Assembly (NCBI GenBank): GCA_963681505.1
Contig: OY811989.1
Coordinates: forward strand, 5,928,000 to 5,991,999
DNA length: 64,000 nt
DNA from: Eunapius fragilis
Taxonomy: Eukaryota > Porifera > Demospongiae > Spongillida > Spongillidae
Direction: 5' to 3'
Made by a program: the position numbers and the translations under genes. The notes under the pieces are model-generated. The model searched no databases. It worked only from the letters and a program-made list of their open reading frames with translations, and was not told the origin of the DNA. Numbering within the stretch: position 1 is the first letter of the stretch; every line of letters starts with the position of its first letter. Positions 22,501 to 48,271 of this stretch are shown piece by piece.

Positions 22501-22973
22501 CAATCCCACTACCAATCCCACTACCAATCCCACTACCAATCCCACTACCACTACCAATCCCACTTCCAATCCCACTACCCATCAAACTACCAATCCCACA
22601 AGCAATCCCATTACCAATTCCACTAACAATCCCACTACCACTACCACTACCAATCCCACTACCCATCAAACTACCAATCCCACTAGCAATCCCATTACCA
22701 ATTCCACTAACAATCCCACTACCAATCCCACTACCAATCCCACTACCAATCCCACTACCAATCCCACTACCAATCCCACTACCAATCCCACTACCAATCC
22801 CACTACCAATCCCACTACCAATCCCACTACCAATCCCACTACCAATCCCACTCCCAATCCCACAACCAATCCCACTACCAATCCCACTACCAATCCCACT
22901 ACCAATCCCACTACCACTATCACTACCACTACCAATCCCACTAATACATCTCTATGGGAAATAATGACTATCT

Positions 22974-24152
22974 TAGCATCGAGGTGTTGATGAGACATGC
23001 AATATGAGTAAACCACTGCACACATGGAAGACAGCAGTAACCATTCCTCTATCTGTTTTAAATGCCACCCCGAGCATACCATCTTTGGTATGTGTTTACC
23101 AAGCGATTCAAAAGTAGGTTCCCACCCATACATTTCTTTGGGAAATTTTTGACTATCTTAGCATCGAGGTGTTGATGAGACATGCAATATGAGCAAACCA
23201 CTGCACACATGGAAGATAGCAATTACCATTCCTTTATCTGGTTTATATGCCACCCCGAGCATACCTGCTTCGGTATGCGTTAACCAAGCGATTCAAAAGT
23301 AGGTTCCCACCCATACATTCCTATGGGAAACCACCCATACATCTCTATGGGAAATAATGACTATCTTAGCATCGAGATGTTGATGAGACATGCAATATGA
23401 GCAAACCACTGCACACAAGGAAGATAGCAGTAACCATTCCTCTATCTGTTTTAAATGCCACCCCGAGCATACCAGCTTTGGTATGGGTTTACCAAGCGAT
23501 TCAAAAGTAGGTTCCCACCCATACATTTCTATGGGAAATTTTTGACTATCTTAGCATCGAGGTGTTGATGAGATATGCAATATGAGTAAACCACTGCACC
23601 CATGGAAGATAGCAGTAACCATTCCTCTATCTGTTTTAAATGCCACCCCGAGCATACCAGATTTGGTATGGGTTTACCAAGCAATTCAAAAGTAGGTTCC
23701 CACCCATACATTCCAATGGGAAACCACCCATACATCTCTATGGGAAATAATGACTATCTTAGCATCGAGGTGTTGATGAGACATGCAATAGGAGCAAACC
23801 ACTGCACACATGTAAGATAGCAGGAACCATTCCTCGATCTGTTTTAAATGCCACCCCGAGTATACCTGCTCATGTATGGGTTAACCAAGCAATTCAAAAG
23901 TAGGTTCCCACCCATACATTTCTATGGGAAATTTTTGACTATCTTAGCATCGAGGTGTTGATGAGATATGCAACATGAGCAAACCACTGCACACATGGAA
24001 GATAGCAGTAACCATTCCTCTATCTGTTTTAAATGCCACCCCGAGCATACCAGATTTGGTATGGGTTTACCAAGCAATTCATAAGTAGGTTCCCACCCAT
24101 ACATTCCAATGGGAAACCACCCATACATCTCTATGGGAAATAATGACTATCT
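22974..24152. repeat. Dimer higher-order repeat (185+208) x3
   Basis: The first six intervals of the satellite read 185,208,185,208,185,208, that is three 393-bp dimers. The dimer regularity stops at 24153, where three consecutive 185-bp monomers follow. Confidence 0.85.
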
Positions 24153-25100
24153 TAGCATCGAGGTGTTGATGAGACATGCAATAGGAGCAAACCACTGCAC
24201 ACATGTAAGATAGCAGGAACCATTCCTCGATCTGTTTTAAATGCCACCCCGAGTATACCTGCTCATGTATGGGTTAACCAAGCAATTCAAAAGTAGGTTC
24301 CCACCCATACATTTCTATTGGAAATTTTTGACTATATTAGCATCGAGGTGTTGATGAGACATGCAATATGAGCAAACCACTGCACACATGGAAGTTAGCA
24401 GTAACCATTCCTGTATCTGTTTTAAATGCCACCCTGAGCATACCGGCTTTGGTATGGGTTTACCAAGCGATTCAAAAGTCGGCTCCCACCCATACATTTC
24501 TATGGGAAATTTTTGACAATCTTAGCATCGAGGTGTTGATGAGATATGCAATATGAGCAAACCACTGCACACATGGAAGATAGCAGTAATCATTCCTCTA
24601 TCTGTTTTAAATGCCACCCCGAGCATACCAGATTTGGTATGGGTTTACCAAGCAATTCAAAAGTAGGTTCCCACCCATACATTTCTATGGGAGATTTTTG
24701 ACAATCTTAGCATCGAGGTGTTGATGAGACATGCAATATGAGCAAACCACTGCACACATGGAAGATAGCAGTAACCATTCCTTTATCTGGTTTAAATGCC
24801 ACACCGAGCATACCTGCATTGGTATGGGTTAACCAAGCTATTCAAAAGTAGGTTCCCAACCATACATTCCAATGGGAAACCTCCCATACATCTCTATGGG
24901 AAATAATGACTATCTTAGCATCGAGGTGTTGATGAGACATGCAATAGGAGCAAACCACTGCACACATGTAATATAGCAGGAACCATTTCTCTATCTGTTT
25001 TAAATGCCACCCCGAGTATACCTGCTCATATATGGGTTAACCAAGCAATTCAAAAGTAGGTTCCCACCCATACATTTCTATGGGAAATTTTTGACAATCT

Positions 25101-27042
25101 TAGCATCGAGGTGTTGATGAGACATGCAATATGAGCAAACCACTGCACACATGGAAGATAGCAGTAACCATTCCTTTATCTGGTTTAAATGCCACCCCGA
25201 CCATACCAGCTTTGGTATGGGTTTACCAAGCGATTTAAAAGTAGGTTCCCACCCATACATTTCTATGGGAAATTTTTGACTATTTTAGCATCGAGGTGTT
25301 GATGAGACATGCAATATGAGCAAACCAATGCACACAAGGAAGTTAGCAGTAACCATTCCTTTATCTGGTTTAAATGCCACACCGAGCATACCTGCATTGG
25401 TATGGGTTAACCAAGCTATTCAAAAGTAGGTTCCCAACCATACATTCCAATGGGAAACCTCCCATACATCTCTATGGGAAATAATGACTATCTTAGCATC
25501 GAGGTGTTGATGAGACATGCAATAGGAGCAAACCACTGCACACATGTAATATAGCAGGAACCATTCCTCTATCTGTTTTAAATGCCACCCCGAGTATACC
25601 TGCTCATATATGGGTTAACCAAGCAATTCAAAAGTAGGTTCCCACCCATACATTTCTATGGGAAATTTTTGACAATCTTAGCATCGAGGTGTTGATGAGA
25701 CATGCAATATGAGCAAACCACTGCACACATGGAAGATAGCAGTAACCATTCCTTTATCTGGTTTAAATGCCACCCCGACCATACCAGCTTTGGTATGGGT
25801 TTACCAAGCGATTTAAAAGTAGGTTCCCACCCATACATTTCTATGGGAAATTTTTGACTATTTTAGCATCGAGGTGTTGATGAGACATGCAATATGAGCA
25901 AACCACTGCACACATGGAAGATAGCAGTAACCATTCCTCTATCTGTTTTAAATGCCACCCCGAGCATACCAGCTTTGGTATGGGTTTACCAAGCGATTCA
26001 AAAGTTGGTTCCCACCTATACATTCCTATGGGAAACCACCCATACATCTCTATGGGAAATAATGACTATCTTAGCATCGAGGTGTTGATGAGACATGTAA
26101 TATGAGCAAACCACTGCACACATGGAAGATAGCAGTAACCATTCCTCTATCTGTTTTAAATGCCACCCCGAGCATACCAACATTGGTATGGGTTCACCAA
26201 GCGATTCAAAAGTAGGTTCCCACCCATACATTTCTATGGGAAATTTTTGACTATCTTAGCATCGAGGTGTTGATGAGACATGCAATATGAGCAAACCAAT
26301 GCACACAAGGAAGTTAGCAGTAACCATTCCTTTATCTGTTTTAAATGCCACCCCGAGCATACCTGCTTTGCTATGGGTTAACCAAGCGATTCAAAAGTAG
26401 GTTCCCACCCATACATTCCACTGGGAAACCACCCATACATCTCTATGGGAAATATTGCCTATCTTAGCATCGAGGTGTTGATGAGACGTGCAATATGAGC
26501 AAACCACTGCACACATGGAAGATAGCAGTAATCATTCCTCAATCTGTTTTAAATGCCACCCCGAGCATGCCAGCTTTGGTATTGGTTAACCAAGCGATTC
26601 AAAAGTAGGTTCCCACCCATACATTCCTATGGGAAACCACCCATACATTTCTATGGGAAATAATGACTATCTTAGCATCGAGGTGTTGATGAGACATGCA
26701 ATAAGAGCAAACCACTGCACACATGGAAGATAGCAGTAACCATTCCTCTATGTGTTTTACATGCCACCCCGAGAATACCAGCTTTGGTATGGGTTTACCA
26801 AGCGATTCAAAAGTAGGTTCCCACCCATACATTTCTATGGGAAATTTTTGACTATCTTAGCATCGAGGTGTTGATGAGACATGCAATATGAGCCAACCAC
26901 TGCACACATGGAAGATAGCAGTAACCATTCCTTTATCTGGTTTAAATGCCACCCCGACCATACCAGCTTTGGTATGGGTTTACCAAGCGATTTAAAAGTA
27001 GGTTCCCACCCATACATTTCTATGGGAAATTTTTGACTATTT
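25101..27042. repeat. 10-mer higher-order repeat, copy 1 (1,942 bp)
   Basis: Ten monomers with lengths 185,208,185,185,208,185,208,208,185,185, totalling 1,942 bp. The same ordered pattern, with the same monomer variants in the same positions, recurs at 28383, 30324, 34780 and 36722. Confidence 0.85.
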
Positions 27043-28382
27043 TAGCATCGAGGTGTTGATGAGACATGCAATATGAGCAAACCACTGCACACATGGAAGA
27101 TAGCAGTAACCATTCCTCTATGTGTTTTAAATGCCACCCCGAGCATACCAGATTTGGTATGGGTTTACCAAGCAATTCAAAAGTAGGTTCCCACCCATAC
27201 ATTTCTATGGGAAATTTTTGACAATCTTAGCATCGAGGTGTTGATGAGACATGCAATATGAGCAAACCACTGCACACATGGAAGATAGCAGTAGCCATTC
27301 CTTTATCTGGTTTAAATGCCACACCGAGGATACCTGCATCGGTTTGGGTTAACCAAGCTATTCAAAAGTAGGTTCCCAACCATACATTCCAATGGGAATC
27401 CACCCATACATCTCTATGGGAAATAATGACTATCTTAGCATCGAGATGTTGATGAGACATGCAATATGAGCAAACCTCTGCACACATGGAAGATAGCAGT
27501 AACCATTCCTCTATCTGTTATAAATGCCACCCCGAGCATACCAGCTTTGGTATGGGTTTACCAAGCGATTTAAAAGTAGGTTCCCACCCATACATTTCTA
27601 TGGGAAATTTTTGACTATTTTAGCATCGAGGTGTTGATGAGACGTGCAATATGAGCAAACCACTGCACACATGGAAGATAGCAGTAACCATTCCTCTATC
27701 TGTTTTAAATGCCACCTCGAGCATACCAGCTTTGGTATGGGTTTACCAAGCGATTCAAAAGTAGGTTCCCACCCATACATTTCTATGGGAAATTTTTGAC
27801 TATCATAGCATCGAGGTGTTGATGAGATATGCAATATGAGCAAACCACTGCACACATGGAAGTTAGCAGTAACCATTCCTTTATCTGTTTTAAATGCCAC
27901 CTTGAGCATACCTGCTTCGGTATGGGTTAACCAAGCGATTCAAAAGTAGGTTCCCACCTATACATTCCTATGGGAAACCACCCATACATCTCTATCGGAA
28001 ATAATGACTATCTTAGCATCGAGATGTTGATGAGACATGCAATATGAGCAAACCACTGCACACATGGAAGATAGCAGTAACCATTCCTCTATCTGTTTTA
28101 AATGCCACCCCGAGCATACCAGATTTGGTATGGGTTTACCAAGCAATTCAAAAGTAGGTTCCCACCCATACATCTCTATGGGAAATAATGACTATCTTAG
28201 CATCGAGGTGTTGATGAGACATGCAATAGGAGCAAACCACTGCACACATGTAAGATAGCAGGAACCATTCCTCTATCTGTTTTAAATGCCACCCCGAGTA
28301 TACTAGCTCATATATGGGTTAACCAAGCAATTCAAAAGTAGGTTCCCACCCATACATTTCTATGGGAAATTTTTGACAATCT

Positions 28383-31300
28383 TAGCATCGAGGTGTTGAT
28401 GAGACATGCAATATGAGCAAACCACTGCACACATGGAAGATAGCAGTAACCATTCCTTTATCTGGTTTAAATGCCACCCCGACCATACCAGCTTTGGTAT
28501 GGGTTTACCAAGCGATTTAAAAGTAGGTTCCCACCCATACATTTCTATGGGAAATTTTTGACTATTTTAGCATCGAGGTGTTGATGAGACATGCAATATG
28601 AGCAAACCACTGCACACATGGAAGATAGCAGTAACCATTCCTTTATCTGGTTTAAATGCCACACCGAGCATACCTGCATTGGTATGGGTTAACCAAGCTA
28701 TTCAAAAGTAGGTTCCCAACCATACATTCCAATGGGAAACCTCCCATACATCTCTATGGGAAATAATGACTATCTTAGCATCGAGGTGTTGATGAGACAT
28801 GCAATAGGAGCAAACCACTGCACACATGTAAGATAGCAGGAACCATTCCTCTATCTGTTTTAAATGCCACCCCGAGTATACCTGCACATATATGGGTTAA
28901 CCAAGCAATTCAAAAGTAGGTTCCCACCCATACATTTCTATGGGAAATTTTTGACAATCTTAGCATCGAGGTGTTGATGAGACATGCAATATGAGCAAAC
29001 CACTGCACACATGGAAGATAGCAGTAACCATTCCTTTATCTGGTTTAAATGCCACCCCGACCATACCAGCTTTGGTATGGGTTTACCAAGCGATTTAAAA
29101 GTAGGTTCCCACCCATACATTTCTATGGGAAATTTTTGACTATTTTAGCATCGAGGTGTTGATGAGACATGCAATATGAGCAAACCACTGCACACATGGA
29201 AGATAGCAGTAACCATTCCTCTATCTGTTTTAAATGCCACCCCGAGCATACCAGCTTTGGTATGGGTTTACCAAGCGATTCAAAAGTTGGTTCCCACATA
29301 TACATTCCTATGGGAAACCACCCATACATCTCTATGGGAAATAATGACTATCTTAGCATCGAGGTGTTAATGAGACATGTAATATGAGCAAACCACTGCA
29401 CACATGGAAGATAGCAGTAACCATTCCTCTATCTGTTTTAAATGCCACCCCGAGCATACCAACATTGGTATGGGTTCACCAAGCGATTCAAAAGTAGGTT
29501 CCCACCCATACATTTCTATGGGAAATTTTTGACTATCTTAGCATCGAGGTGTTGATGAGACATGCAATATGAGCAAACCAATGCACACATGGAAGTTAGC
29601 AGTAACCATTCCTTTATCTGTTTTAAATGCCACCCCGAGCATACCTGCTTTGCTATGGGTTAACCAAGCGATTCAAAAGTAGGTTCCCACCCATACATTC
29701 CACTGGGAAACCACCCATACATCTCTATGGGAAATATTGCCTATCTTAGCATCGAGGTGTTGATGAGACGTGCAATATGAGCAAACCACTGCACACATGG
29801 AAGATAGCAGTAATCATTCCTCAATCTGTTTTAAATGCCACCCCGAGCATGCCAGCTTTGGTATTGGTAAACCAAGCGATTCAAAAGTAGGTTCCCACCC
29901 ATACATTCCTATGGGAAACCACCCATACATTTCTATGGGAAATAATGACTATCTTAGCATCGAGGTGTTGATGAGACATGCAATAAGAGCAAACCACTGC
30001 ACACATGGAAGATAGCAGTAACCATTCCTCTATGTGTTTTACATGCCACCCCGAGAATACCAGCTTTGGTATGGGTTTACCAAGCGATTCAAAAGTAGGT
30101 TCCCACCCATACATTTCTATGGGAAATAATGACTATCTTAGCATCGAGGTGTTGATGAGACATGCAATAGGAGCAAACCACTGCACACATGTAAGATAGC
30201 AGGAACCATTCCTCTATCTGTTTTAAATGCCACCCCGAGTATAGCAGCTCATATATGGGTTAACCAAGCAATTCAAAAGTAGGTTCCCACCCATACATTT
30301 CTATGGGAAATTTTTGACAATCTTAGCATCGAGGTGTTGATGAGACATGCAATATGAGCAAACCACTGCACACATGGAAGATAGCAGTAACCATTCCTTT
30401 ATCTGGTTTAAATGCCACCCCGACCATACCAGCTTTGGTATGGGTTTACCAAGCGATTTAAAAGTAGGTTCCCACCCATACATTTCTATGGGAAATTTTT
30501 GACTATTTTAGCATCAAGGTGTTGATGAGACATGGAGCAAACCACTGCACACATGGAAGATAGCAGTAACCATTCCTTTATCTGGTTTAAATGCCACACC
30601 GAGCATACCTGCATTGGTATGGGTTAACCAAGCTATTCAAAAGTAGGTTCCCAACCATACATTCCAATGGGAAACCTCCCATACATGTCTATGGGAAATA
30701 ATGACTATCTTAGCATCGAGGTGTTGATGAGACATGCAATAGGAGCAAACCACTGCACACATGTAAGATAGCAGGAACCATTCCTCTATCTGTTTTAAAT
30801 GCCACCCCGAGTATACCTGCTCATATATGGGTTAACCAAGCAATTCAAAAGTAGGTTCCCACCCATACATTTCTATGGGAAATTTTTGACAATCTTAGCA
30901 TCGAGGTGTTGATGAGACATGCAATATGAGCAAACCACTGCACACATGGAAGATAGCAGTAACCATTCCTTTATCTGGTTTAAATGCCACCCCGACCATT
31001 CCAGCTTTGGTATGGGTTTACCAAGCGATTTAAAAGTAGGTTCCCACCCATACATTTCTATGGGAAATTTTTGACTATTTTAGCATCGAGGTGTTGATGA
31101 GACATGCAATATGAGCAAACCACTGCACACATGGAAGATAGCAGTAACCATTCCTCTATCTGTTTTAAATGCCACCCCGAGCATACCAGCTTTGGTATGG
31201 GTTTACCAAGCGATTCAAAAGTTGGTTCCCACATATACATTCCTATGGGAAACCACCCATACATCTCTATGGGAAATAATGACTATCTTAGCATCGAGGT

Positions 31301-32259
31301 GTTAATGAGACATGTAATATGAGCAAACCACTGCACACATGGAAGATAGCAGTAACCATTCCTCTATCTGTTTTAAATGCCACCCCGAGCATACCAACAT
31401 TGGTATGGGTTCACCAAGCGATTCAAAAGTAGGTTCCCACCCATACATTTCTATGGGAAATTTTTGACTATCTTAGCATCGAGGTGTTGATGAGACATGC
31501 AATATGAGCAAACCAATGCACACATGGAAGTTAGCAGTAACCATTCCTTTATCTGTTTTAAATGCCACCCCGAGCATACCTGCTTTGCTATGGGTTAACC
31601 AAGCGATTCAAAAGTAGGTTCCCACCCATACATTCCACTGGGAAACCACCCATACATCTCTATGGGAAATATTGCCTATCTTAGCATCGAGGTGTTGATG
31701 AGACGTGCAATATAAGCAAACCACTGCACACATGGAAGATAGCAGTAATCATTCCTCAATCTGTTTTAAATGCCACCCCGAGCATGCCAGCTTTGGTATT
31801 AGTTAACCAAGCGATTCAAAAGTAGGTTCCCACCCATACATTCCTATGGGAAACCACCCATACATTTCTATGGGAAATAATGACTATCTTAGCATCGAGG
31901 TGTTGATGAGACATGCAATAAGAGCAAACCACTGCACACATGGAAGATAGCAGTAACCATTCCTCTATGTGTTTTACATGCCACCCCGAGAATACCAGCT
32001 TTGGTATGGGTTTACCAAGCGATTCAAAAGTAGGTTCCCACCCATACATTTCTATGGGAAATTTTTGACTATCTTAGCATCGAGGTGTTGATGAGACATG
32101 CAATATGAGCCAACCACTGCACACATGGAAGATAGCAGTAACCATTCCTTTATCTGGTTTAAATGCCACCCCGACCATACCAGCTTTGGTATGGGTTTAC
32201 CAAGCGATTTAAAAGTAGGTTCCCACCCATACATTTCTATGGGAAATTTTTGACTATTT
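28383..32259. repeat. 10-mer higher-order repeat, copies 2 and 3 in tandem
   Basis: Copy 2 is 28383-30323 (1,941 bp, with one 184-bp monomer) and copy 3 is 30324-32259 (1,936 bp, with one 202-bp monomer carrying a 6-bp loss near 30530). Monomer order matches the unit at 25101. The two copies abut directly. Confidence 0.87.
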
Positions 32260-34201
32260 TAGCATCGAGGTGTTGATGAGATATGCAATATGAGCAAACC
32301 ACTGCACACATGGAAGATAGCAGTAACTATTCCTCTATCTGTTTTAAATGCCACCCCGAGCATACCAGATTTGGTATGGGTTTACCAAGCAATTCAAAAG
32401 TAGGTTCCCACCAATACATTTCTATGGGAAATTTTTGACAATCTTAGCATCGAGGTGTTGATGAGACATGCAATATAAGCAAACCACTGCACACATGGAA
32501 GATAGCAGTAGCCATTCCTTTATCTGGTTTAAATGCCACACCGAGCATACCTGCATCGGTTTGGGTTAACCAAGCTATTCAAAAGTAGGTTCCCAACCAT
32601 ACATTCCAATGGGAAACCACCCATACATCTCTATGGGAAATAATGACTATCTTAGCATCGAGATGTTGATGAGACATGCAATATGAGCAAACCTCTGCAC
32701 ACATGGAAGATAGCAGTAACCATTCCTCTATCTGTTATAAATGCCACCCCGAGCATACCAGCTTTGGTATGGGTTTACCAAGCGATTTAAAAGTAGGTTC
32801 CCACCCATACATTTCTATGGGAAATTTTTGACTATTTTAGCATCGAGGTGTTGATGAGACGTGCAATATGAGCAAACCACTGCACACATGGAAGATAGCA
32901 GTAACCATTCCTCTATCTGTTTTAAATGCCACCCCGAGCATACCAGCTTTGGTATGGGTTTACCAAGCGATTCAAAAGTATGTTCCCACCCATACATTTC
33001 GATGGGAAATTTTTGACTATCTTAGCATCGAGGTGTTGATGAGATATGCAATATGAGCAAACCACTGCACACATGGAAGTTAGCAGTAACCATTCCTTTA
33101 TCTGTTTTAAATGCCACCTTGAGCATACCTGCTTCGGTATGGGTTAACCAAGCGATTCAAAAGTAGGTTCCCACCCATACATTCCTATGGGAAACCACCC
33201 ATACATCTCTATCGGAAATAATGACTATCTTAGCATCGAGATGTTGATGAGACATGCAATATGAGCAAACCACTGCACACATGGAAGATAGCAGTAACCA
33301 TTCCTCTATCTGTTTTAAATGCCACCCCGAGCATACCAGATTTGGTATGGGTTTACCAAGCAATTCAAAAGTAGGTTCCCACCCATACATTTCTATGGGA
33401 AATTTTTGACAATCTTAGCATCGAGGTGTTGATGAGACATGCAATATGAGCAAACCACTGCACACATGGAAGATAGCAGTAGCCATTCCTTTATCTGGTT
33501 TAAATGCCACACCGAGCATACCTGCATCGGTTTGGGTTAACCAAGCTATTCAAAAGTAGGTTCCCAACCATACATTCCAATGGGAAACCACCCATACATC
33601 TCTGTGGGAAATAATGACTATCTTAGCATCGAGATGTTGATGAGACATGCAATATGAGCAAACCTCTGCACACATGGAAGATAGCAGTAACCATTCCTCT
33701 ATCTGTTATAAATGCCACCCCGAGCATACCAGCTTTGGTATGGGTTTACCAAGCGATTTAAAAGTAGGTTCCCACCCATACATTTCTATGGGAAATTTTT
33801 GACTATTTTAGCATCGAGGTGTTGATGAGACGTGCAATATGAGCAAACCACTGCACACAAGGAAGATAGCAGTAACCATTCCTCTATCTGTTTTAAATGC
33901 CACCCCGAGCATACCAGCTTTGGTATGGGTTTACCAAGCGATTCAAAAGTAGGTTCCCACCCATACATTTCTATGGGAAATTTTTGACTATCTTAGCATC
34001 GAGGTGTTGATGAGATTTGCAATATGAGCAAACCACTGCACACATGGAAGTTAGCAGTAACCATTCCTTTATCTGTTTTAAATGCCACCTTGAGCATACC
34101 TGCTTCGGTATGGGTTAACCAAGCGATTCAAAAGTAGGTTCCCACCCATACATTCCTATGGGAAACCACCCATACATCTCTATCGGAAATAATGACTATC
34201 T
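32260..34201. repeat. 5-mer higher-order repeat (971 bp) x2
   Basis: Two consecutive units of 185,208,185,185,208, at 32260-33230 and 33231-34201, each 971 bp. The same five-monomer order also occurs at 27043-28013. Confidence 0.85.
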
Positions 34202-34779
34202 TAGCATCGAGATGTTGATGAGACATGCAATATGAGCAAACCACTGCACACATGGAAGATAGCAGTAACCATTCCTCTATCTGTTTTAAATGCCACCCCG
34301 AGCATACCAGATTTGGTATGGGTTTACCAAGCAATTCAAAAGTAGGTTCCCACCCATACATTTCTATGGGAAATTTTTGACAATCTTAGCATCGAGGTGT
34401 TGATGAGACATGCAATATAAGCAAACCACTGTACACATGGAAGATAGCAGTAACCATTCCTTTATCTGTTTTAAATGCCACCCCGAGCATACCTGCTTCG
34501 GTATTGGTTAACCAAGCGATTCAAAAGTAGGTTCCCACCCATACATTCCTATGGGAAACCACCCATACATTTCTATGGGAAATAATGACTATCTTAGCAT
34601 CGAGGTGTTGATGAGATATGAAATATGAGCAAACCACTGCACAAATGGAAGATAGCAGTAACCATTCCTCTATCTGTTTTAAATGCCACCCTGAGCATAC
34701 CAGCTTTGGTATGGGTTTACCAAGCGATTCAAAAGTAGGTTCCCACCCATACATTTCTATGGGAAATTTTTGACAATCT

Positions 34780-37700
34780 TAGCATCGAGGTGTTGATGAG
34801 ATATGCAAAATGAGCAAACCACTGCACACATGGAAGATAGCAGTAATCATTCCTCTATCTGTTTTAAATGCCACCCCGAGCATACCAGATTTGGTATGGG
34901 TTTACCAAGCAATTCAAAAGTAGGTTCCCACCCATACATTTCTATGGGAGATTTTTGACAATCTTAGCATCGAGGTGTTGATGAGACATGCAATATGAGC
35001 AAACCACTGCACACATGGAAGATAGCAGTAACCATTCCTTTATCTGGTTTAAATGCCACACCGAGCATACCTGCATTGGTATGGGTTAACCAAGCTATTC
35101 AAAAGTAGGTTCCCAACCATACATTCCAATGGGAAACCTCCCATACATCTCTATGGGAAATAATGACTATCTTAGCATCGAGGTGTTGATGAGACATGCA
35201 ATAGGAGCAAACCACTGCACACATGTAAGATAGCAGGAACCATTCCTCTATCTGTTTTAAATGCCACCCCGAGTATACCTGCTCATATATGGGTTAACCA
35301 AGCAATTCAAAAGTAGGTTCCCACCCATACATTTCTATGGGAAATTTTTGACAATCTTAGCATCGAGGTTTTTATGAGACATGCAATATGAGCAAACCAC
35401 TGCACACATGGAAGATAGCAGTAACCATTCCTTTATCTGGTTTAAATGCCACCCCGACCATACCAGCTTTGGTATGGGTTTACCAAGCGATTTAAAAGTA
35501 GGTTCCCACCCATACATTTCTATGGGAAATTTTTGACTATTTTAGCATCGAGGTGTTGATGAGACATGCAATATGAGCAAACCACTGCACACATGGAAGA
35601 TAGCAGTAACCATTCCTCTATCTGTTTTAAATGCCACCCCGAGCATACCAGCTTTGGTATGGGTTTACCAAGCGATTCAAAAGTTGGTTCCCACCTATAC
35701 ATTCCTATGGGAAACCACCCATACATCTCTATGGGAAATAATGACTATCTTAGCATCGAGGTGTTGATGAGACATGTAATATGAGCAAACCACTGCACAC
35801 ATGGAAGATAGCAGTAACCATTCCTCTATCTGTTTTAAATGCCACCCCGAGCATACCAACATTGGTATGGGTTCACCAAGCGATTCAAAAGTAGGTTCCC
35901 ACCCATACATTTCTATGGGAAATTTTTGACTATCTTAGCATCGAGGTGTTGATGAGACATGCAATATGAGCAAACCAATGCACACATGGAAGTTAGCAGT
36001 AACCATTCCTTTATCTGTTTTAAATGCCACCCCGAGCATACCTGCTTTGCTATGGGTTAACCAAGCGATTCAAAAGTAGGTTCCCACCCATACATTCCAC
36101 TGGGAAACCACCCATACATCTCTATGGGAAATATTGCCTATCTTAGCATCGGGGTGTTGATGAGACATGCAATATGAGTAAACCACTGCACACATGGAAG
36201 ATAGCAGTAATCATTCCTCTATCTGTTTTAAATGCCACCCCGAGCATGCCAGCTTTGGTATTGGTTAACCAAGCGATTCAAAAGTAGGTTCCCACCCATA
36301 CATTCCTATGGGAAACCACCCATACATTTCTATGGGAAATAATGACTATCTTAGCATCGAGGTGTTGATGAGACATGCAATATGAGCAAACCACTGCACA
36401 CATGGAAGATAGCAGTAACCATTCCTCTATGTGTTTTACATGCCACCCCGAGAATACCAGCTTTGGTATGGGTTTACCAAGCGATTCAAAAGTAGGTTCC
36501 CACCCATACATTTCTATGGGAAATTTTTGACTATCTTAGCATCGAGGTGTTGATGAGACATGCAATATGAGCCAACCACTGCACACATGGAAGATAGCAG
36601 TAACCATTCCTTTATCTGGTTTAAATGCCACCCCGACCATACCAGCTTTGGTATGGGTTTACCAAGCGATTTAAAAGTAGGTTCCCACCCATACATTTCT
36701 ATGGGAAATTTTTGACAATCTTAGCATCGAGGTGTTGATGAGATATGCAAAATGAGCAAACCACTGCACACATGGAAGATAGCAGTAATCATTCCTCTAT
36801 CTGTTTTAAATGCCACCCCGAGCATACCAGATTTGGTATGGGTTTACCAAGCAATTCAAAAGTAGGTTCCCACCCATACATTTCTATGGGAGATTTTTGA
36901 CAATCTTAGCATCGAGGTGTTGATGAGACATGCAATATGAGCAAACCACTGCACACATGGAAGATAGCAGTAACCATTCCTTTATCTGGTTTAAATGCCA
37001 CACCGAGCATACCTGCATTGGTATGGGTTAACCAAGCTATTCAAAAGTAGGTTCCCAACCATACATTCCAATGGGAAACCTCCCATACATCTCTATGGGA
37101 AATAATGACTATCTTAGCATCGAGGTGTTGATGAGACATGCAATAGGAGCAAACCACTGCACACATGTAAGATAGCAGGAACCATTCCTCTATCTGTTTT
37201 AAATGCCACCCCGAGTATACCTGCTCATATATGGGTTAACCAAGCAATTCAAAAGTAGGTTCCCACCCATACATTTCTATGGGAAATTTTTGACAATCTT
37301 AGCATCGAGGTTTTTATGAGACATGCAATCTGAGCAAACCACTGCACACATGGAAGATAGCAGTAACCATTCCTTTATCTGGTTTAAATGCCACCCCGAC
37401 CATACCAGCTTTGGTATGGGTTTACCAAGCGATTAAAAAGTAGGTTCCCACACATACATTTCTATGGGAAATTTTTGACTATTTTAGCATCGAGGTGTTG
37501 ATGAGACATGCAATATGAGCAAACCACTGCACACATGGAAGATAGCAGTAACCATTCCTCTATCTGTTTTAAATGCCACCCCGAGCATACCAGCTTTGGT
37601 ATGGGTTTACCAAGCGATTCAAAAGTTGGTTCCCACCTATACATTCCTATGGGAAACCACCCGTACATCTCTATGGGAAATAATGACTATCTTAGCATCG

Positions 37701-38663
37701 AGGTGTTGATGAGACATGTAATATGAGCAAACCACTGCACACATGGAAGATAGCAGTAACCATTCCTCTATCTGTTTTAAATGCCACCCCGAGCATACCA
37801 ACATTGGTATGGGTTCACCAAGCGATTCAAAAGTAGGTTCCCACCCATACATTTCTATGGGAAATTTTTGACTATCTTAGCATCGAGGTGTTGATGAGAC
37901 ATGCAATATGAGCAAACCAATGCACACATGGAAGTTAGCAGTAACCATTCCTTTATCTGTTTTAAATGCCACCCCGAGCATACCTGCTTTGCTATGGGTT
38001 AACCAAGCGATTCAAAAGTAGGTTCCCACCCATACATTCCACTGGGAAACCACCCATACATCTCTATGGGAAATATTGCCTATCTTAGCATCGGGGTGTT
38101 GATGAGACATGCAATATGAGCAAACCACTGCACACATGGAAGATAGCAGTAATCATTCCTCTATCTGTTTTAAATGCCACCCCGAGCATGCCAGCTTTGG
38201 TATTGGTTAACCAAGCGATTCAAAAGTAGGTTCCCACCCATACATTCCTATGGGAAACCACCCATACATTTCTATGGGAAATAATGACTATCTTAGCATC
38301 GAGGTGTTGATGAGACATGCAATATGAGCAAACCACTGCACACATGGAAGATAGCAGTAACCATTCCTCTATGTGTTTTACATGCCACCCCGAGAATACC
38401 AGCTTTGGTATGGGTTTACCAAGCGATTCAAAAGTAGGTTCCCACCCATACATTTCTATGGGAAATTTTTGACTATCTTAGCATCGAGGTGTTGATGAGA
38501 CATGCAATATGAGCCAACCACTGCACACATGGAAGATAGCAGTAACCATTCCTTTATCTGGTTTAAATGCCACCCCGACCATACCAGCTTTGGTATGGGT
38601 TTACCAAGCGATTTAAAAGTAGGTTCCCACCCATACATTTCTATGGGAAATTTTTGACTATTT
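34780..38663. repeat. 10-mer higher-order repeat, copies 4 and 5 in tandem
   Basis: Two abutting copies, 34780-36721 and 36722-38663, each exactly 1,942 bp with the same ten-monomer length order as the unit at 25101. Private variants such as GATATGCAAAATGAG and the TTTTTATGAGAC variant occur at the same place in both copies, so this pair arose by a recent tandem duplication. Confidence 0.9.
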
Positions 38664-41137
38664 TAGCATCGAGGTGTTGATGAGACATGCAATATGAGCA
38701 AACCACTGCACACATGGAAGATAGCAGTAACCATTCCTCTATCTGTTTTAAATGCCACCCCGAGCATACCAGCTTTGGTATGGGTTTACCTAGCAATTCA
38801 AAAGTAGGTTCCCACCCATACATTTCTATGGGAAATGTTTGACTATCTTAGCATCGAGGTGTTGATGAGACATGCAATATTAGCAAACCACTGCACACAT
38901 GGAAGATAGCAGTAACCATTCCTCTATCTGTTTTAAATGCCACCCCGAGCATACCAACATTGGTATCGGTTCACCAAGCGATTCAAAAGTAGGTTCCCAC
39001 CCATACATTTCTATGGGAAATTTTTGACTATCTTAGCATCGAGGTGTTGATGAGACATGCAATATGAGCAAACCAATGCACACATGGAAGTTAGCAGTAA
39101 CCATTCCTTTATCTGTTTTAAATGCCACCCCGAGCATACCTGCTTTGCTATGGGTTAACCAAGCGATTCAAAAGTAGGTTCCCACCCATACATTCCACTG
39201 GGAAACCACCCATACATTTCTATGGGAAATAATGACTATCTTAGCATCGAGGTGTTGATGAGACATGCAATATGAGCAAACCACTGCACACATGGAAGAT
39301 AGCAGTAACCATTCCTCTATGTGTTTTACATGCCACCCCGAGAATACCAGCTTTGGTATGGGTTTACCAAGCGATTCAAAAGTAGGTTCCCACCCATACA
39401 TTTCTATGGGAAATTTTTGACTATCTTAGCATCGAGGTGTTGATGAGACATGCAATATGAGCCAACCACTGCACACATGGAAGATAGCAGTAACCATTCC
39501 TTTATCTGGTTTAAATGCCACCCCGACCATACCAGCTTTGGTATGGGTTTACCAAGCGATTTAAAAGTAGGTTCCCACCCATACATTTCTATGGGAAATT
39601 TTTGACTATTTTAGCATCGAGGTGTTGATGAGACATGCAATATGAGCAAACCACTGCACACATGGAAGATAGCAGTAACCATTCCTCTATCTGTTTTAAA
39701 TGCCACCCCGAGCATACCAGCTTTGGTATGGGTTTACCTAGCAATTCAAAAGTAGGTTCCCACCCATACATTTCTATGGGAAATGTTTGACTATCTTAGC
39801 ATCGAGGTGTTGATGAGACATGCAATATTAGCAAACCACTGCACACATGGAAGATAGCAGTAACCATTCCTCTATCTGTTTTAAATGCCACCCCGAGCAT
39901 ACCAACATTGGTATCGGTTCACCAAGCGATTCAAAAGTAGGTTCCCACCCATACATTTCTATGGGAAATTTTTGACTATCTTAGCATCGAGGTGTTGATG
40001 AGACATGCAATATGAGCAAACCAATGCACACATGGAAGTTAGCAGTAACCATTCCTTTATCTGTTTTAAATGCCACCCCGAGCATACCTGCTTTGCTATG
40101 GGTTAACCAAGCGATTCAAAAGTAGGTTCCCACCCATACATTCCACTGGGAAACCACCCATACATCTCTATGGGAAATATTGCCTATCTTAGCATCGAGG
40201 TGTTGATGAGACGTGCAATATGAGCAAACCACTGCACACATGGAAGATAGCAGTAATCATTCCTCTATCTGTTTTAAATGCCACCCCGAGCATGCCAGCT
40301 TTGGTATTGGTTAACCAAGCGATTCAAAAGTAGGTTCCCACCCATACATTCCTATGGGAAACCACCCATACATTTCTATGGGAAATAATGACTATCTTAG
40401 CATCGAGGTGTTGATGAGACATGCAATATGAGCAAACCAATGCACACATGGAAGATAGCAGTAACCATTCCTCTATGTGTTTTAGATGCCACCCCGAGCA
40501 TACCAGCTTTGGTATGGGTTTACCAAGCGATTCAAAAGTAGGTTCCCACCCATACATTTCTATGGGAAATTTTTGACTATCTTAGCATCGAGGTGTTGAT
40601 GAGACATGCAATATGAGCCAACCACTGCACACATGGAAGATAGCAGTAACCATTCCTTTATCTGGTTTAAATGCCACCCCGACCATACCAGCTTTGGTAT
40701 GGGTTTACCAAGCGATTTAAAAGTAGGTTCCCACCCATACATTTCTATGGGAAATTTTTGACTATTTTAGCATCGAGGTGTTGATGAGACATGCAATATG
40801 AGCAAACCACTGCACACATGGAAGATAGCAGTAACCATTCCTCTATCTGTTTTAAATGCCACCCCGAGCATACCAGCTTTGGTATGGGTTTACCAAGCAA
40901 TTCAAAAGTAGGTTCCCACCCATACATTTCTATGGGAAATTTTTGACAATCTTAGCATCGAGGTGTTGATGAGACATGCAATATGAGCAAACCACTGCAC
41001 ACATGGAAGATAGCAGTAAACATTCCTCTATCTGTTTTAAATGCCACCCCGAGCATACCAACATTGGTATGGGTTCACCAAGCGATTCAAAAGTAGGTTC
41101 CCACCCATACATTTCTATGGGAAATTTTTGACTATCT
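38664..41137. repeat. Right-end higher-order repeats rich in short monomers (948 and 1,156 bp)
   Basis: From 38664 the order is 185,185,185,208,185 (948 bp), then 185,185,185,208,208,185,185 (1,156 bp), then further short runs. Matching variants recur at offsets of 948 bp (38456 to 39404) and 1,156 bp (39404 to 40560). This end of the array therefore uses a different higher-order unit from the middle. Confidence 0.78.
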
Positions 41138-42160
41138 TAGCATCGAGGTGTTGATGAGACATGCAATATGAGCAAACCAATGCACACATGGAAGTTAGCA
41201 GTAACCATTCCTTTATCTGTTTTAAATGCCACCCCGAGCATACCTGCTTTGCTATGGGTTAACCAAGCGATTCAAAAGTAGGTTCCCACCCATACATTCC
41301 ACTGGGAAACCACCCATACATCTCTATGGGAAATATTGCCTATCTTAGCATCGAGGTGTTGATGAGACGTGCAATATGAGCAAACCACTGCACACATGGA
41401 AGATAGCAGTAATCATTCCTCAATCTGTTTTAAATGCCACCCCGAGCATGCCAGCTTTGGTATTGGTTAACCAAGCGATTCAAAAGTAGGTTCCCACCCA
41501 TACATTCCTATGGGAAACCACCCATACATTTCTATGGGAAAAAATGACTATCTTAGCATCGAGGTGTTGATGAGACATGCAATATGAGCAAACCACTGCA
41601 CACATGGAAGATAGCAGTAACCATTCCTCTATGTGTTTTACATGCCACCCCGAGCATACCAGCTTTGGTATGGGTTTACCAAGCGATTCAAAAGTAGGTT
41701 CCCACCCATACATTTCTATGGGAAATTTTTGACTATCTTAGCATCGAGGTGTTGATGAGACATGCAGTATGAGCAAACCACTGCACACATGGAAGTTAGC
41801 AGTAACCATTCCTTTATCTGTTTTAAATGCCACCTCGAGCATACCTCCTTCGGTATGGGTTAACCAAGCGATTCAAAAGTAGGTTCCCATGCACCCATAC
41901 ATTCCTATGGGAAACCACCAATACATCTCTATGGGAAATAATGACTATCTTAGCATCGAGGTGTTGATGAGACATGCAATATGAGTAAACCACTGCACAC
42001 ATGGAAGATAGCAGTAACCATTCCTTTATCTGTTTTAAATGCCACCTCGAGCATGCCTGCTTCGGTGTTGGTTAACCAAGCGATTCAAAAGTAGGTTCCC
42101 ACCCATACATTCCTATGGGAAACCACCCATACATCTCTATGGGAAATAATGACTACCTAT

Positions 42161-44064
42161 GTTCATTGGAACATGCCGAACCAATTGGCCGAATTGGTGC
42201 GGCATGTCCCAATGAATTGATGCCAATTGGGCCAATTGGTTCCATCTAACCAATTGGCGCGATATGTACTATTTAAGCCAATTGGGCCAATTGGTTCCAC
42301 GGGCCCAATTGGTGCGATATGTCCCAATGAATTGATGCCAATTGGGTAAATTGGTTCCATCGGCCCAATTGACGCGATAAGTACAATTTATGCCAATCGG
42401 GCCAATTGGTTCCAATGGCCCAATTGGTGCGGTATGTCCCAATGAATTGATGCCAATTGGGCCAATTGGTTCCATCCGCCCAATTCGCGCGATATGTCCT
42501 AATGAAATGATAACAATTGGGCCAATTGGTTCTACTGGCCCAATTGGCGCGATATGAACAATTTACGCCAATTGGGCCAATTGATTCCACGGGCCCAATT
42601 GGTGCGATATGTCCCAATGAATTGATGGCAATTGGGCCAATTGGTTCCATCAGCCCAATTGGCGCGATATGTCCAGATGAAATGATGCCAATTGGTCCGA
42701 TTGGTTCCACCGGCCCAATTGGCGCGATATGTACTATTTGTACCAATTGGGCCAATTGGTTCCACGGGCCCAATTGGTGCGATATGTCCCAATTAATTGA
42801 TGCCATTTGGGGCAATTTGTTCCATCTGCCCAATTGGCGCGATATGTTCTAATGAAATGATACCAATTGGGCCAATTGGTACCATCGGCCCAATTGGCGC
42901 GATATGTTCAATTTATGCCAATTGGGCCAATTGGTTCCACCGGCCCAATTGGCGCGGTATGTCCCAATGAATTGATGCCAATTGGGCCAATTGGTTCCAT
43001 TGGCCCAATTGGTGCGATATGAACTATTTATGCCAATTGGGCCAATTGGTTCAACAGGCCCAATTGGTGCGGTATGTCCCAATGAATAGATGCCAATTGG
43101 GCCAATTGGTTCCATCGGCCGAATTGGCGGGATATGTCCTAATGAATTGATGCCATTTGGGCCAATTGGTTCCACCTGCCCAATTGGCGCGATATGTACT
43201 ATTTATGCCAATTGGGCCAATTGGTTCCACGGGCCCAATTGGTGCGATATGTCCCAATGAATTGATGCCAATTTGGCCAATTGGTTCCATCTAACCAATT
43301 GGCGCGATATGTACTATTTATGCCAATTGGGCCAATTGGTTCCACGGGCCCAATTGGTGCGACATGTTCTAATGAAATGATACCAATTGGGCCAATTGGT
43401 TCCGCCGGCCCAATTGGCGCGATATGTACTATTTATGCCAATTGGGCCAATTGGTTCCACGGGCCCAATTGGTGCGATATGTCCCAATGGATTGATGCCA
43501 ATTGGGCCACTTGGTTCCATCGGCCCAATTGGCGCGATAAGTACAATTTATGCCAATCGGGCCAATTGGTTCCAATGGCCCAATTGGTGCGGTATGTTCC
43601 AATGAATTGATGCGAATTGGGCCAATTGGTTCCATCCGCCCAATTGGCGCGATATGTCCTAATGAAATGATGCCAATTGGGCCAATTGGTTCCACCGGCC
43701 CAATTGGCGCGATATGATCAATTTACGCCAATTGGGCCAATTGGTTCCACGGGCCCTATTGGTGCGATATGTCCCAATGAATTGATGCTAATTGGGCCAA
43801 TTGGTTCCATCGGCCCAATTGGCGCGATATGTACAATTTATGCCAATTGGGCCAATTGGTACCACCGGCCCAATTGTTGCGGTATGTCCCAATGAATTGA
43901 TGCCAATTGGGCCAATTGGTTCCACCGGCCCAATTGGCGCGATATGAACAATTTACGCTAATTGAGCCAATTGGTTCCACGGGCCGAATTGGTGCGATAT
44001 GTCCCAATGAATTGATGCCAATTGGGCCAATTGGTTCCACCGGCCCAATTGGCGCGATATGAAC
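42161..44064. repeat. 55/60-bp satellite, left segment
   Basis: Alternating monomers of about 55 bp (ending GTACAATTTATG) and 60 bp (ending GTCCCAATGAATTGATG) form a 115-bp dimer. Each monomer starts CCAATTGGGCCAATTGG, a near-palindrome made of two CCAATTGG palindromes, followed by GGCCCAATTGGCGCGATATG. The array follows the 185/208-bp satellite through a short transition (GACTACCTATGTTCATTGG) and is cut at 44064 by the retroelement, resuming at 48457. Confidence 0.95.
44060..44064. repeat. Target-site duplication, left copy (TGAAC)
   Basis: TGAAC directly left of the element is repeated at 48457-48461. Five bases is the usual size for Metaviridae integrases. The uninterrupted sequence in this satellite, GATATGAACAATTTACGC, contains the motif once. 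Confidence 0.93.
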
Positions 44065-44201
44065 TGTAGTGACCTAGTCACTCGTTTAAGCCGCTACAAG
44101 AGAGGTGAACATCTCGCTGCGTGACTGACTCAAAAAGTGATCATTGTTTCACGCGCATGCGCTAACATATTACAATTGACACCCACACACAATATATTAC
44201 A
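44065..44201 (-). repeat. 3' LTR (137 bp) of the Ty3/Gypsy element
   Basis: Matches 48320-48456 at 135 of 137 positions. In element orientation it starts TGTAATATATTG and ends CACTACA. A short purine-rich stretch (AGAAGGGG) lies just upstream in element orientation and is a possible polypurine tract, although it does not touch the LTR. Confidence 0.95.
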
Positions 44202-44267
44202 TCTAAAGTTCAACCCCTTCTAATGTCCTAACATATTACATATACTACAGCATGAGTTTAATCACCA

Positions 44268-47200
44268 TTAATGACCATAATAGTCTGGAGGCTTCCTCAC
44301 TCTTGTCGACCGACGCACTGGTGCTGAAATAGGCACTTGTGGATGTGGTATATCATTGTCCTCTGCACTCGCTACAGGAATACCAACAGTAGATGGAATA
44401 GAGGGAGGTACTTCAGGGGGAGCTTGAACACAAGGCTCCGATGAAGATGAATCAGCAGTAGGAACAGCTCTTTCGTCAGAAGAACTTGGTGAAACCACAG
44501 GGGGACTTGACGGACCTGATGTAATGTCATTAGGGTTGTTCACATAGACATCATCACTAGCGTCTACTTGAGAGTTGTGGCGGGCCCTCAGATGGTCTAT
44601 ATGTCTGCGGACTACTCCACTTCCAATCTTAACAGTATAGGAGAGAGGCCCGGTAACAGTGACAATGACTCCTGGAATCCACTTCTTGGGAAAACGAAAA
44701 TCCCGAACGTATACTAGGTCACCTTCAACAAACTTACGCTCACTGATACCCCGAGTATCATGATCCCGCTTCTGCGCGGCTTGGCGAGACTCCACTCGAA
44801 CAGCCAGGTCAGGATGCAAAATGTCAAGTCGGGAACGAGGGCGACGACCCAGCAAAAGTTCAGCCGGTGACGAACCTGTGGTACTGTGAGGAGTCAACCG
44901 GTACTTAAACAAGAAACAAGATAGTTTTGTTTCAATAGATCCTAGCTTTTGGTGTAGAAGACCCTGTTTGAAAGTCTGAACGGCTCTTTCGGCTAAACCG
45001 TTTGTTGAGGGATGATAGGGGGCAGACTTGACATGGATGATACCATTCTGACTCGTAAACAATCTGAACTCTTCACTCACGAAAGCCGGCCCATTGTCTG
45101 TTACTATCTTCCGTGGTACCCCATGAATTGCAAATATGCTCTTCAAACGCTCAATAGTAGGTACCGCTGATATCGACTTCATAAGGTGAACCTCGAGCCA
45201 CTTTGAGTGGGCATCAATCAACACCAAAAACATATGTCCCATGAATGGCCCTGCAAAATCAATATGCAAACGAGACCAGGGTTCTTGGGGCCATTCCCAT
45301 GGATGGAGAGGAGCCACTGGTGGCAGGAATCGAGATGACTGACAAGTGTCGCATTGCTTGACTACGTCCTCTATCTCTTTATCCATATTGGGCCACCACA
45401 CATATCCTCGAGCTAAGCCTTTCATCTTATTAATCCCTGGGTGCGATTCATGCAATTCTGCCAAGACTTGTTGCCTGCCCTGCGGTGGAATGATAACTCT
45501 AGCTCCCCACAACAAACAACCATCCAAAACGCTCAACTCATTCTTTCTCTGCTGATAGGAGCTCAAATCATCACCTAGATTTCCGCCAGGCCACCCACTC
45601 TTAACAAATCCTCGAACTCTCGACAGAACTGGGTCTCGGTCCGTCCAACCCCTAATTTGGCTAACCGTAATAGGAATGGTTGAGAGTAAGTCAAGCAAGG
45701 TAAGATCATCCCCAGGAGTGGATACGCAACTAATGGATTGTGGGCTGGGCAGACGGCTGAAGGCATCAGCATTGTCATGTTGAGCTCCAGACTTGTATCT
45801 GATTGAGTATTGGTACGTGCTAAGTGCTAAAGCCCACCTCTGTATTCTAGATGAGGCCATAGGTGGTATACCCCTATGTTCTCCAAATAAATAGATAAGT
45901 GGTTTATGGTCAGAAAAGATTGTAAAAGGACGACCATACAAGTACTGATGAAATTTGGAAACACCAAAGTATATAGCCAAAGCTTCCTTATCCAATTGGG
46001 AATAACCCTTTTCAGCAGGTGACAAGGTACGTGAAACAAATCCTATAGGTCTCTCCGATCCATCCTCCATTTCGTGGGACAGTACTGCCCCTATCCCGTA
46101 GGGTGAAGCATCACACGCCAGAAGGATTGGCTTGTGGCTATCATAATGCACCAAAAGAGCTGACGTCTTCAACATGTTTTTCCCAGCAGCAAACGCCTGC
46201 TCCTGTTCAGATGTCCAACTCCATTTCTGCTGTTTTCTCAACAATTGGTACAAAGAGGACAGCTTGGAGGCAAGGTTTGGCAAAAACTTGGAATATAATT
46301 AAGCAGTCCCAAGAAAGATTTTAATTCTGTGATATTCTTGGGTGATTGTGCTTCGTTTATTGCCTGAACCTTGGCATCGGTAGGGTGCAAACCTTCTCTA
46401 TCAATACGATGACCCAAATATTCTATAGACGAAGCCATGAATATACATTTTGCCTTTTTAAGCCGCAACCCACTTTCACCAAGTTTACATAGAGCCTTGT
46501 CTAAAGTATGTAAGTGTTCCTCTATCGATGCACCCGTTACCAGAATGTCATCAACGTACACCACTGTGTGATCTATACCCTGTAGCACACATTCCATAGC
46601 CCTCTGAAACATGGCTGGGGCCGATGCCACCCCAAAAGGTAATCGGTTGTACTCAAACAGACCTTTATGCGTGTTAATAGTAGTATATGCTTTGGAGGCA
46701 TCATCTAATCTCATCTGTTGATAAGCATTAGTCAAGTCAATTTTTGAGAATAAGCGGCCCCCTGACAAAGAAGCAAATAAGTCCTCTACTCGAGGAACAG
46801 GGTACGATTCCAATTTGGATGCCTGATTCACCGTTAGCTTATAGTCTCCACATATTCTAACTGTCCCATCCTCTTTCACTATTGGCACTATTGGTGCTGC
46901 CCAATCCGCAAAAGGCACAGGTCGAATCACCCCAGACGTCTCTAGACGTCTCAACTCCACCTCAATCTTATCCTTTAGGACATAAGGCACGGAACGGGCT
47001 TTATAAAACCTTGGACTAACCAGTGGATCAACTGAGAATTTAGCAAAAACTCCCTTCAAGGTTCCCAATTCATCCTGGAACAACACTCTATGCTTCTCCA
47101 ACAGCTCTTCCAGGTTCTTATTCACCCGTACATTGTGAATCTCCCCCCAATCAATCTTAATAACTTGCAACCAATTCCGGCCCAATAAGTTTGGTCCCTT

Positions 47201-47560
47201 TGAATTCACTACTAGCAACGGTAAACTGGCTGTTTGAGACTTATATGATACTACCACTTCTGCCACTCCCGCAATAGATAATGGCTCTCCTGTATAGGTG
47301 CTTAATCGAGTTGCCGTAGGATGCAACGTTGGCATTCCCTTTTCACACGATCCCCACAAATCCTCAAACATTTTTTTGCTGATTACAGTCATAGCAGCAC
47401 CCGTATCTAGTTCCATATCAATTCTAGCCCCGTTAATCTCCATGGGTACTATGAATGGCTGCACTTTGGGCAAACCCAACACATTTAATGTCTGTAAAAC
47501 CTCTTCCTCATTCTCTTCGTCGTTTATTCTATGAGTTTTCTCTACAGCATCTTCTCTCTT
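44268..47560 (-). pseudogene. pol: pol region of the Ty3/Gypsy element (protease, RT, RNase H, integrase)
   Basis: Retroelement polyprotein region that would process, reverse-transcribe and integrate the element. Visible parts, in element order: aspartic protease with its DTGA active site near 47,400; reverse transcriptase with the DLTNAYQQM and LPFGVASAP blocks and the YVDD catalytic motif near 46,550; RNase H with DASPYGIGAVL near 46,110 and SDHKPL near 45,910; integrase with an HHCC zinc-binding region near 45,450-45,340; integrase catalytic blocks HIDFAGP (near 45,260), TDNGPAF (near 45,090) and NGLAERAV (near 44,980); and a GPY/F-like module (GPLSYTV) near 44,640. The C-terminus ends in the basic RRSTRVRKPPD tail common in this group. 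Treated as a fossil: about one break overall, so this copy is probably not autonomous. Confidence 0.93.
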
Positions 47561-48271
47561 GTGAGTAACACCTCTACACACTTTGGCTAAATGCCCGCGT
47601 TTCCCACATTGACTACAGATTGCTCCCTTAAACCTACAAGATGAGGCATAATGGTTTCCTCCACATCTGTAGCATTCTATTACTTTTTTAGCCATATCCT
47701 TTGGTCTACTTCCTACCGCATTGATCACGGGGGGTACAGTGGTAGGCACAGAGGATTGTAACTCAATTGCATGTTTATTTGCAGATTCCACTGCTAAGGC
47801 TATTTGAAATGCCCTTGCGAATGTTAACTCAACCTCTCCTAGTAGGCGCCTCTGAATACGCTCGTCCTTCACCCCGCATACTACACGGTCTCTTAATACG
47901 TCCTGCAGAGTATCACCAAATGCACAATGTTCTGACAATTGTCTTAAAGCAGCTACAAAATCCGCAATGGACTCCCCTTCTCCCCTTACACGGGAATTAA
48001 ATTTGAACCGCTGCATAGGCTTTGGTTGGAGGTGGCTAGCCACTAACTCTACAATCTCCTTATAGGTTTTCTCATCTGGTTTAAGTGGTGTCGACAAATT
48101 TCGTATTAGTAGATACGTCGGCGCTCCACATGAACTCAGTAGAACGGCGCGTCGAGTCTCCTGTGTGTCGACTCCATTCGCCACAAAGTAGTGCTCAGCG
48201 CGCTCCACGTATGACCCCCACTCTTCTGTTCCTGGCACGAACTCCGGCAAAAACCCGTGTTTCGCCGCCAT
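47560..48271 (-). CDS. gag: gag-like part of the Ty3/Gypsy element
   Basis: Capsid-like protein region that would coat the element RNA in virus-like particles. The chosen ATG at 48271 gives MAAKHGFLPEF, about 50 bases inside the 5' LTR edge, so the leader is very short. The first 170 or so residues are gag-like, with helical charged segments and a KFNSRVRGEGESIADFVAAL stretch typical of metavirus retrotransposon gag. They are followed by two CCHC-type zinc knuckles at about 47,674-47,576 (CYRC... and CSQCGKRGHLAKVC). The region continues toward the protease without an obvious boundary, so the right limit given here is only approximate. Confidence 0.88.

Follow-up and report, generated by a model that had tools for sequence, protein, structure and literature searches.

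Two monomer lengths of a higher-order-repeat satellite in Eunapius fragilis are very probably inherited through copying of monomer blocks

Why are almost all monomers of one satellite array either 185 or 208 bp long? The array lies in a window of 64 kb (by which we mean the whole stretch of DNA analysed, C19:5928000-5991999) on the 6,159,499-bp contig C19, in an assembly of 218.9 Mb in 24 contigs; its features are listed in Table 1. The primary anchor, CTTAGCATCGAGGTGTTGATGAGACATG with at most six substitutions permitted, has 99 matches from position 22972 to 41949, giving 98 intervals: 59 of 185 bp, 35 of 208 bp, two of 184 bp, one of 202 bp and one of 212 bp. This recount is identical to that of a first-pass annotation of the window, with 94 of the 98 intervals being 185 or 208 bp. 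Two alternative anchors placed on the same array gave 58 intervals of 185 bp, 36 of 208 bp, two of 184 bp, one of 179 bp and one of 212 bp. The mean pairwise identity of the 98 aligned monomers is 0.919 and that of adjacent monomers 0.907.

Table 1. Coordinates of the array, its higher-order units and its variant monomers in the window
Feature	Position	Strand	Basis
185/208-bp satellite array, a head-to-tail run of about 99 monomers	22943..42160	+	anchor spacing and monomer alignment
24-bp tandem pair, an example of what makes a 208-bp monomer	23307..23354	+	
Further 24-bp tandem pairs	23700-23747, 24093-24140, 26012-26059, and others		
184-bp monomer, one unit and short tail	28012..28195	+	anchor spacing, unit-tail table
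Second 184-bp monomer, one unit and short tail	29953-30136		anchor spacing, unit-tail table
202-bp monomer, 6-bp loss	30507-30708		in the 10-monomer copy 30137..32072
212-bp monomer, 208-bp form plus 4 bp inserted at the junction	41737..41948	+	anchor spacing, alignment
10-monomer higher-order unit, monomers 28-37	28196..30136	+	at least 98% match, monomer by monomer, to next copy
Next copy of the 28196..30136 unit, monomers 38-47	30137..32072	+	
10-monomer higher-order unit, monomers 62-71, 1942 bp	34778..36719	+	
Next copy of the 34778..36719 unit, monomers 72-81, 1942 bp	36720..38661	+	
12-bp array	1-22928		

Each monomer consists of a 151-bp core and a junction. The junction is made up of a 24-bp unit (CCCATA...TATGGG) that forms a hairpin and is present once or twice, in rare cases three times, and of a tail that exists in a long form or one base shorter. 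Monomers of 185 bp have one unit and the long tail, monomers of 208 bp two units and the short tail. One internal 24-bp duplication had been proposed as the origin of the long form: the data support it as the cause of the two peaks, but the net step is 23 bp, as 208 is 184 + 24 and the 185-bp form carries one extra, linked tail base (AAATTTTTGAC versus AAATAATGAC). To call the long form a second stable state is too simple: the 24-bp copy-number ladder (184/185, 208/209 and 232 bp) also yields 184, 209 and 232 bp, and forms of 199, 207 and 174 bp exist too. The unit folds on itself modestly better than shuffled sequences (z of -1.7 for one unit and -2.1 for two), and folding as the reason for copy-number change at the junction is plausible but unproven.

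The linkage between unit number and tail was followed in 657 monomers of the main family, drawn from the window and 18 other stretches of the genome. One unit with long tail (376) and two units with short tail (245) are the common combinations, two units with long tail (22) and one unit with short tail (6) the rare ones, and eight monomers (six of 199 bp, one of 174 bp and one of 184 bp) were left unclassed; r2 between unit number and tail is 0.83. A separate hand tally by tail length gave 376, 235, 23 and 7, with an r2 of 0.82. The 184-bp and 209-bp forms are recombinants of this linkage. Two intervals of 341 bp (stretch L025) and one of 2505 bp (an insertion in stretch L018) were excluded from the length counts. 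Stretches L010-L023 had been selected by match to a 185+208 query, which biases them in favour of these two lengths; the genome-wide pair counts given below are free of this bias.

The 98 monomers of the window fall into 27 types at 2% distance and 18 types at 3.5%, each type is nearly pure in length, and the string of types shows repeated blocks. At two places in the array a run of ten monomers matches the ten that follow it at 98% or above; other runs at this level comprise nine monomers at lag 50, nine at lag 17 and eight at lag 27, and at 72% of positions a monomer has the same length as the one ten places further on. Multi-monomer blocks are thus more alike than neighbouring monomers, as in a higher-order-repeat satellite, and these block-copied repeats support the strong homogenisation that the first-pass annotation had put forward. 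Because blocks are copied whole, the monomer lengths are not 98 independent draws: together with the purity of the types, the block copies indicate that the 98 lengths are copies of some 18-27 ancestral choices. Even when the junction is omitted, the nearest neighbour of a monomer by core alone shares its unit class in 95.7% of the 98 window monomers (53% expected) and in 93.8% of the 657 monomers (50.7% expected). Individual core sites show little association with unit class, as short-tract exchange predicts: the highest r2, reached at core site 126 in either case, is 0.197 over all arrays together and 0.297 for the window alone. Two deep monomer lineages, one per length, are rejected on these weak ties.

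Genome-wide, a 22-base pattern with up to two mismatches has 7834 forward and 7075 reverse sites and its reversed control none; if each site were one monomer, the satellite would make up about 1.3% of the genome. These 14909 sites and the non-coding, head-to-tail array of 19 kb have the high copy number and the organisation of satellite DNA. Monomer lengths were taken from pairs of exact 14-base anchors 155-238 bp apart, a count that misses monomers with a changed anchor. Of 9889 such pairs, 4701 are spaced by 185 bp and 4137 by 208 bp, together 8838 (89.4%), and the two sharp peaks that had been predicted for the genome are present. The other spacings are 155-184 bp (333), 186-207 bp (552) and 209-238 bp (166). 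The near-absence of single-base length changes, also claimed at first pass, holds for the window; across the genome, 1051 pairs (10.6%) have neither length.

Off-length spacings often recur as families among the first 100 places listed per class. The 199-bp form, a two-unit form minus 9 bp, accounts for 43 of 100 places listed of 552, all of them at C2 17.437-17.497 Mb; one 10-kb stretch of C9 has seven spacings of 207 bp and nine of 209 bp, and one on C10 has 12 of 209 bp. Among the matches listed, the three-unit form of 232 bp occurs at four places on C7; a string from its first two units matches exactly at those four places only and, with one or two changes, at 185 further ones, mostly ordinary two-unit forms where listed. 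In the set of 657 monomers, 53 depart from the two main lengths, and several of the deviating junctions are found repeatedly (8, 7, 7, 6, 5, 4 and 3 times). Off-length forms have thus spread and been amplified, indicating that length deviants are not barred from array growth.

A sister family, 83% identical to the main family in its consensus, has 160 + 57 places genome-wide with at most one mismatch. Its spacing is often 196 bp or a multiple among the places listed, and two stretches contain seven monomers of 196 bp, two of 193 bp and one of 192 bp. The sister junction resembles a two-unit junction minus 12 bp, and at C2 15.6007-15.6015 Mb there are two-unit (207 bp) and one-unit (183 bp) sister forms. 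The core length of 151 bp is kept in 649 of the 657 main-family monomers and in 7 of the 10 sister-family monomers.

From these data we consider it very probable that this is a higher-order-repeat satellite, probably subterminal, whose junction states are inherited through block copying and short-tract exchange. The sister junction and its 207-bp and 183-bp forms suggest that the 24-bp duplication would have preceded the split of the two families; after the split, the arrays would have grown by out-of-register copying of monomer blocks, while short-tract exchange between monomers carried a few length states along. The peaks would then be sharp because lengths are inherited, rather than because other lengths fail. 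Block copying largely accounts for the two-peak length histogram, separating inherited from selected length; the same data show small indels to be several-fold scarcer in tandem arrays than in dispersed DNA. So few small indels are not predicted by block copying alone, which explains the shortage only partly, and a constraint on core length would be the more direct explanation.

The shortage was measured between nearest repeat units. In the window, nearest monomers of the 185/208 array differ by 111 substitutions and 4 indels (72 pairs). The neighbouring satellites are quantised in length too (55/60, 32/34, 12/18/24/30 and 52/62/72 bp): the adjoining but unrelated 55/60-bp AATTGG satellite has 147 substitutions to 5 indels (128 pairs), the 24-bp array 38 to 9 (93 pairs) and the 32/34-bp array 27 to 0 (31 pairs). 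Across six groups of 185/208 arrays the count is 815 to 13 (window part 129:4), based on unique monomers only and with stretches L025, L040, L057 and L058 left out. The control, three copies of part of one dispersed element with one copy shared between comparisons, gave 54:6, 79:10 and 51:10. The shortage of small indels relative to this control is real (Fisher tests of 815:13 against 54:6, p = 0.001, odds ratio 7.0, and against 79:10, p = 2e-5, odds ratio 7.9; window 111:4 against 79:10, p = 0.048). The AATTGG satellite also differs from the control (147:5 against 79:10, p = 0.024), but not from the 185/208 satellite, whether in the window (p = 1.0) or across the array groups (p = 0.18), and on these numbers the shortage need not be special to the 185/208 satellite.

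Several further counts carry less weight. Contig-end repeats (122 substitutions and 24 gap openings in five alignments of 80-98% identity) were superseded as control by the dispersed element. All-pairs ratios, 11.2 for the 185/208 and 10.1 for the AATTGG satellite, are not relied on, since each ladder step counts as an indel. Parsimony on core trees of the 657 monomers gave 678 substitutions and 6 indels, values inflated by exchange between monomers and taken as support only. As a gauge of whether indel alleles are rarer than base alleles, 79 of 282 core base alleles are single, as are about half of some 11 distinct length events counted by hand, about seven of which fall in the 34-bp junction. 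Whole-array self-BLAST counts were set aside, as most runs passed one long, off-register alignment only (substitutions to small indels: window 1311:47, C2 96:0, C9 406:12 and C10 1136:15; AATTGG 500:38 and 208:12, with 27:0 in a high-identity run; 24-bp array 246:22, 66-bp 138:4 and 12-bp 698:62); read literally, these counts would put the 185/208 arrays below AATTGG in indels.

A general filter in homogenisation, by which heteroduplex loops from small indels are repaired or rejected while base changes stay, is compatible with block copying and may be at work, although we hold this tentatively. It fits the shortage shared by two unrelated satellites of the window and the indel-free 32/34-bp array, but less well the nearby 24-bp array with its nine indels, and ten sister-family monomers compared in all pairs (1040 substitutions to 76 indels) have a ratio nearer to dispersed DNA; in addition, the control is three copies of a single element. 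If the shortage is true across satellites, it bears on how differently homogenisation treats indels and base changes. Selection on length, suggested at first pass with phased nucleosomes as an example, would instead mean that the monomer phases a nucleosome, that register-shifting indels are removed and that the 24-bp unit provides a second linker length which is tolerated. Per substitution, indels are indeed some 7- to 8-fold fewer than in the dispersed element, and the length-stable core of 151 bp nearly matches a nucleosome core (147 bp) in size, with most of the hand-counted length events lying outside it in the junction. However, off-length forms are amplified, the AATTGG satellite is as indel-poor in the window with units far from nucleosome size, neither a 23-bp nor a 24-bp step amounts to a whole number of helical turns, and two lengths in irregular order cannot yield one regular spacing. 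In the one monomer tested, the 10-bp AA/TT/TA signal is not significant: 106 of 1000 shuffles reach its power, and the best period is 12.2. Nucleosome-phasing selection is therefore possible but unsupported here and needless for the data, and we regard it as unlikely.

Decidedly unlikely, too, is a scheme in which the 151-bp core is length-locked, by selection or by indel-rejecting homogenisation, and the 24-bp cassette is swapped as a two-state linker whose order writes chromatin spacing near chromosome ends. That indels were removed in consensus building is highly improbable: the assembly retains 1-bp variants (184, 186, 207 and 209 bp) as well as indels in dispersed copies, and spacings of 185 and 208 bp are present on both strands and in stretches of eight contigs (C2, C4, C9, C10, C14, C15, C17 and the window's C19).

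The window lies about 167-231 kb from the end of C19. Among the places listed, at most 100 per list, 65 clusters were made by hand, with low contig numbers favoured and clusters on one contig non-independent; 46 of the 65 are no more than 0.65 Mb away from a contig end, against an expected share of 0.124. Of the clusters within 0.3 Mb, 23 of 25 have the same orientation relative to the nearest end (p = 2e-5), while deeper clusters show no polarity (14/24 and 6/15, and one cluster, on C1, is mid-contig). The satellite is thus probably subterminal. By position alone it resembles subtelomeric satellites as a class, as outlined in parts of PMC8122249, in that many placed arrays are near chromosome ends; unlike that class, many arrays sit 0.3-2 Mb in from the contig end, and telomere repeats mark only some ends (of 40 contig ends read, 7 have clear TTAGGG arrays of at least nine doubled repeats, none of them on C19).

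The 185/208 array belongs to a known, ordinary kind of satellite. The sections of PMC8122249 on higher-order repeats describe near-identical multi-monomer blocks made of diverged neighbouring monomers, and the array shares this organisation, as well as nucleosome-scale monomers, with the alpha-satellite-type repeats of primate centromeres. Unlike alpha satellite it has two interspersed length classes and an irregular block order rather than one fixed higher-order repeat and, unlike its centromeric form, its placed arrays, known here from sequence alone, lie for the most part near contig ends. Length classes that coexist in one satellite, one short indel apart, are also found in the passages of Melters et al. 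2013 (PMC4053949) on switchgrass centromeric repeat variants (B1 175 bp, B2 166 bp, a 9-bp indel) and on cichlid repeats (237/206 bp, with the indel given as 29 bp); according to those passages the two switchgrass lengths are never mixed within a read, whereas 185 and 208 bp alternate within the array and within the higher-order unit. Among the titles and abstract openings listed in searches of the open-licence literature, none describes this 185/208-bp family.

Two other identities of the array were considered and rejected. Arithmetic would allow a coding frame, 24 being a multiple of 3 and 185 + 208 = 393 bp corresponding to 131 codons; stop-to-stop frames wholly inside 22943-42160 are all 113 aa or shorter. 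For an RNA gene array, an Rfam scan of 1.8 kb (22800-24600) gave six matches, the best of which scores 15.3 bits where the gathering score is 51. Satellite makes up most of the whole 64 kb; the window also contains the 24-bp and 32/34-bp arrays, and its AATTGG-rich array encloses a Ty3/gypsy-like element.

Besides the 185/208 array (the two-length satellite with monomers of 185 or 208 bp), further satellites of the window are likewise quantised in repeat length, as judged from the interval lengths of four arrays. The AATTGG satellite, the 55/60-bp array adjoining the 185/208 array, flanks a Ty3/gypsy-like LTR element on both the left and the right, and the element sits inside the array; by eye, its terminal stretches resemble each other.

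Coordinates of satellites, repeats and inserted elements
Feature	Location	Strand	Details
Satellite, 12/18/24/30 bp; CCACTA-rich array (left)	window 1-22928		quantised intervals
Satellite, 52/62/72 bp; 62-bp repeat (left)	window 11676-12955		quantised intervals
Satellite, 55/60 bp	window 42187-57111		164/178 intervals 55 or 60 bp
Ty3/gypsy-like LTR element	window, about 44065-48457	minus	protease, RT, RNase H, integrase domains
62-bp repeat (right)	window 57128-57582
TAGTGG array (right)	window 57583-58180
Satellite, 32/34 bp	window 62597-64000		41/41 intervals 32 or 34 bp
2.3-kb insertion in 185/208 array	L018, about 3750-6100 (C4:14203750-14206100)

Similar versions of a 62-bp repeat occur left and right in the window. 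Likewise, a TAGTGG array on the right corresponds to the CCACTA-rich one on the left; the arrangement resembles that of a single block after inversion and splitting.

Near-identical sequence (about 98-100% identity, up to 1.9 kb) is common to the contig ends L030, L039, L042, L045, L049, L053 and L033, L046, L059, with a 706-bp internal shift in some copies; telomere arrays are absent from these ends. An Rfam scan of six contig ends (L030, L033, L039, L042, L049, L028) and a Pfam search with a single frame of L030 gave no match.

The insertion within the 185/208 array on contig C4 has relatives on C19, C17, C1, C15, C2 and C4, and judging from these dispersed copies it is mobile-element-like.
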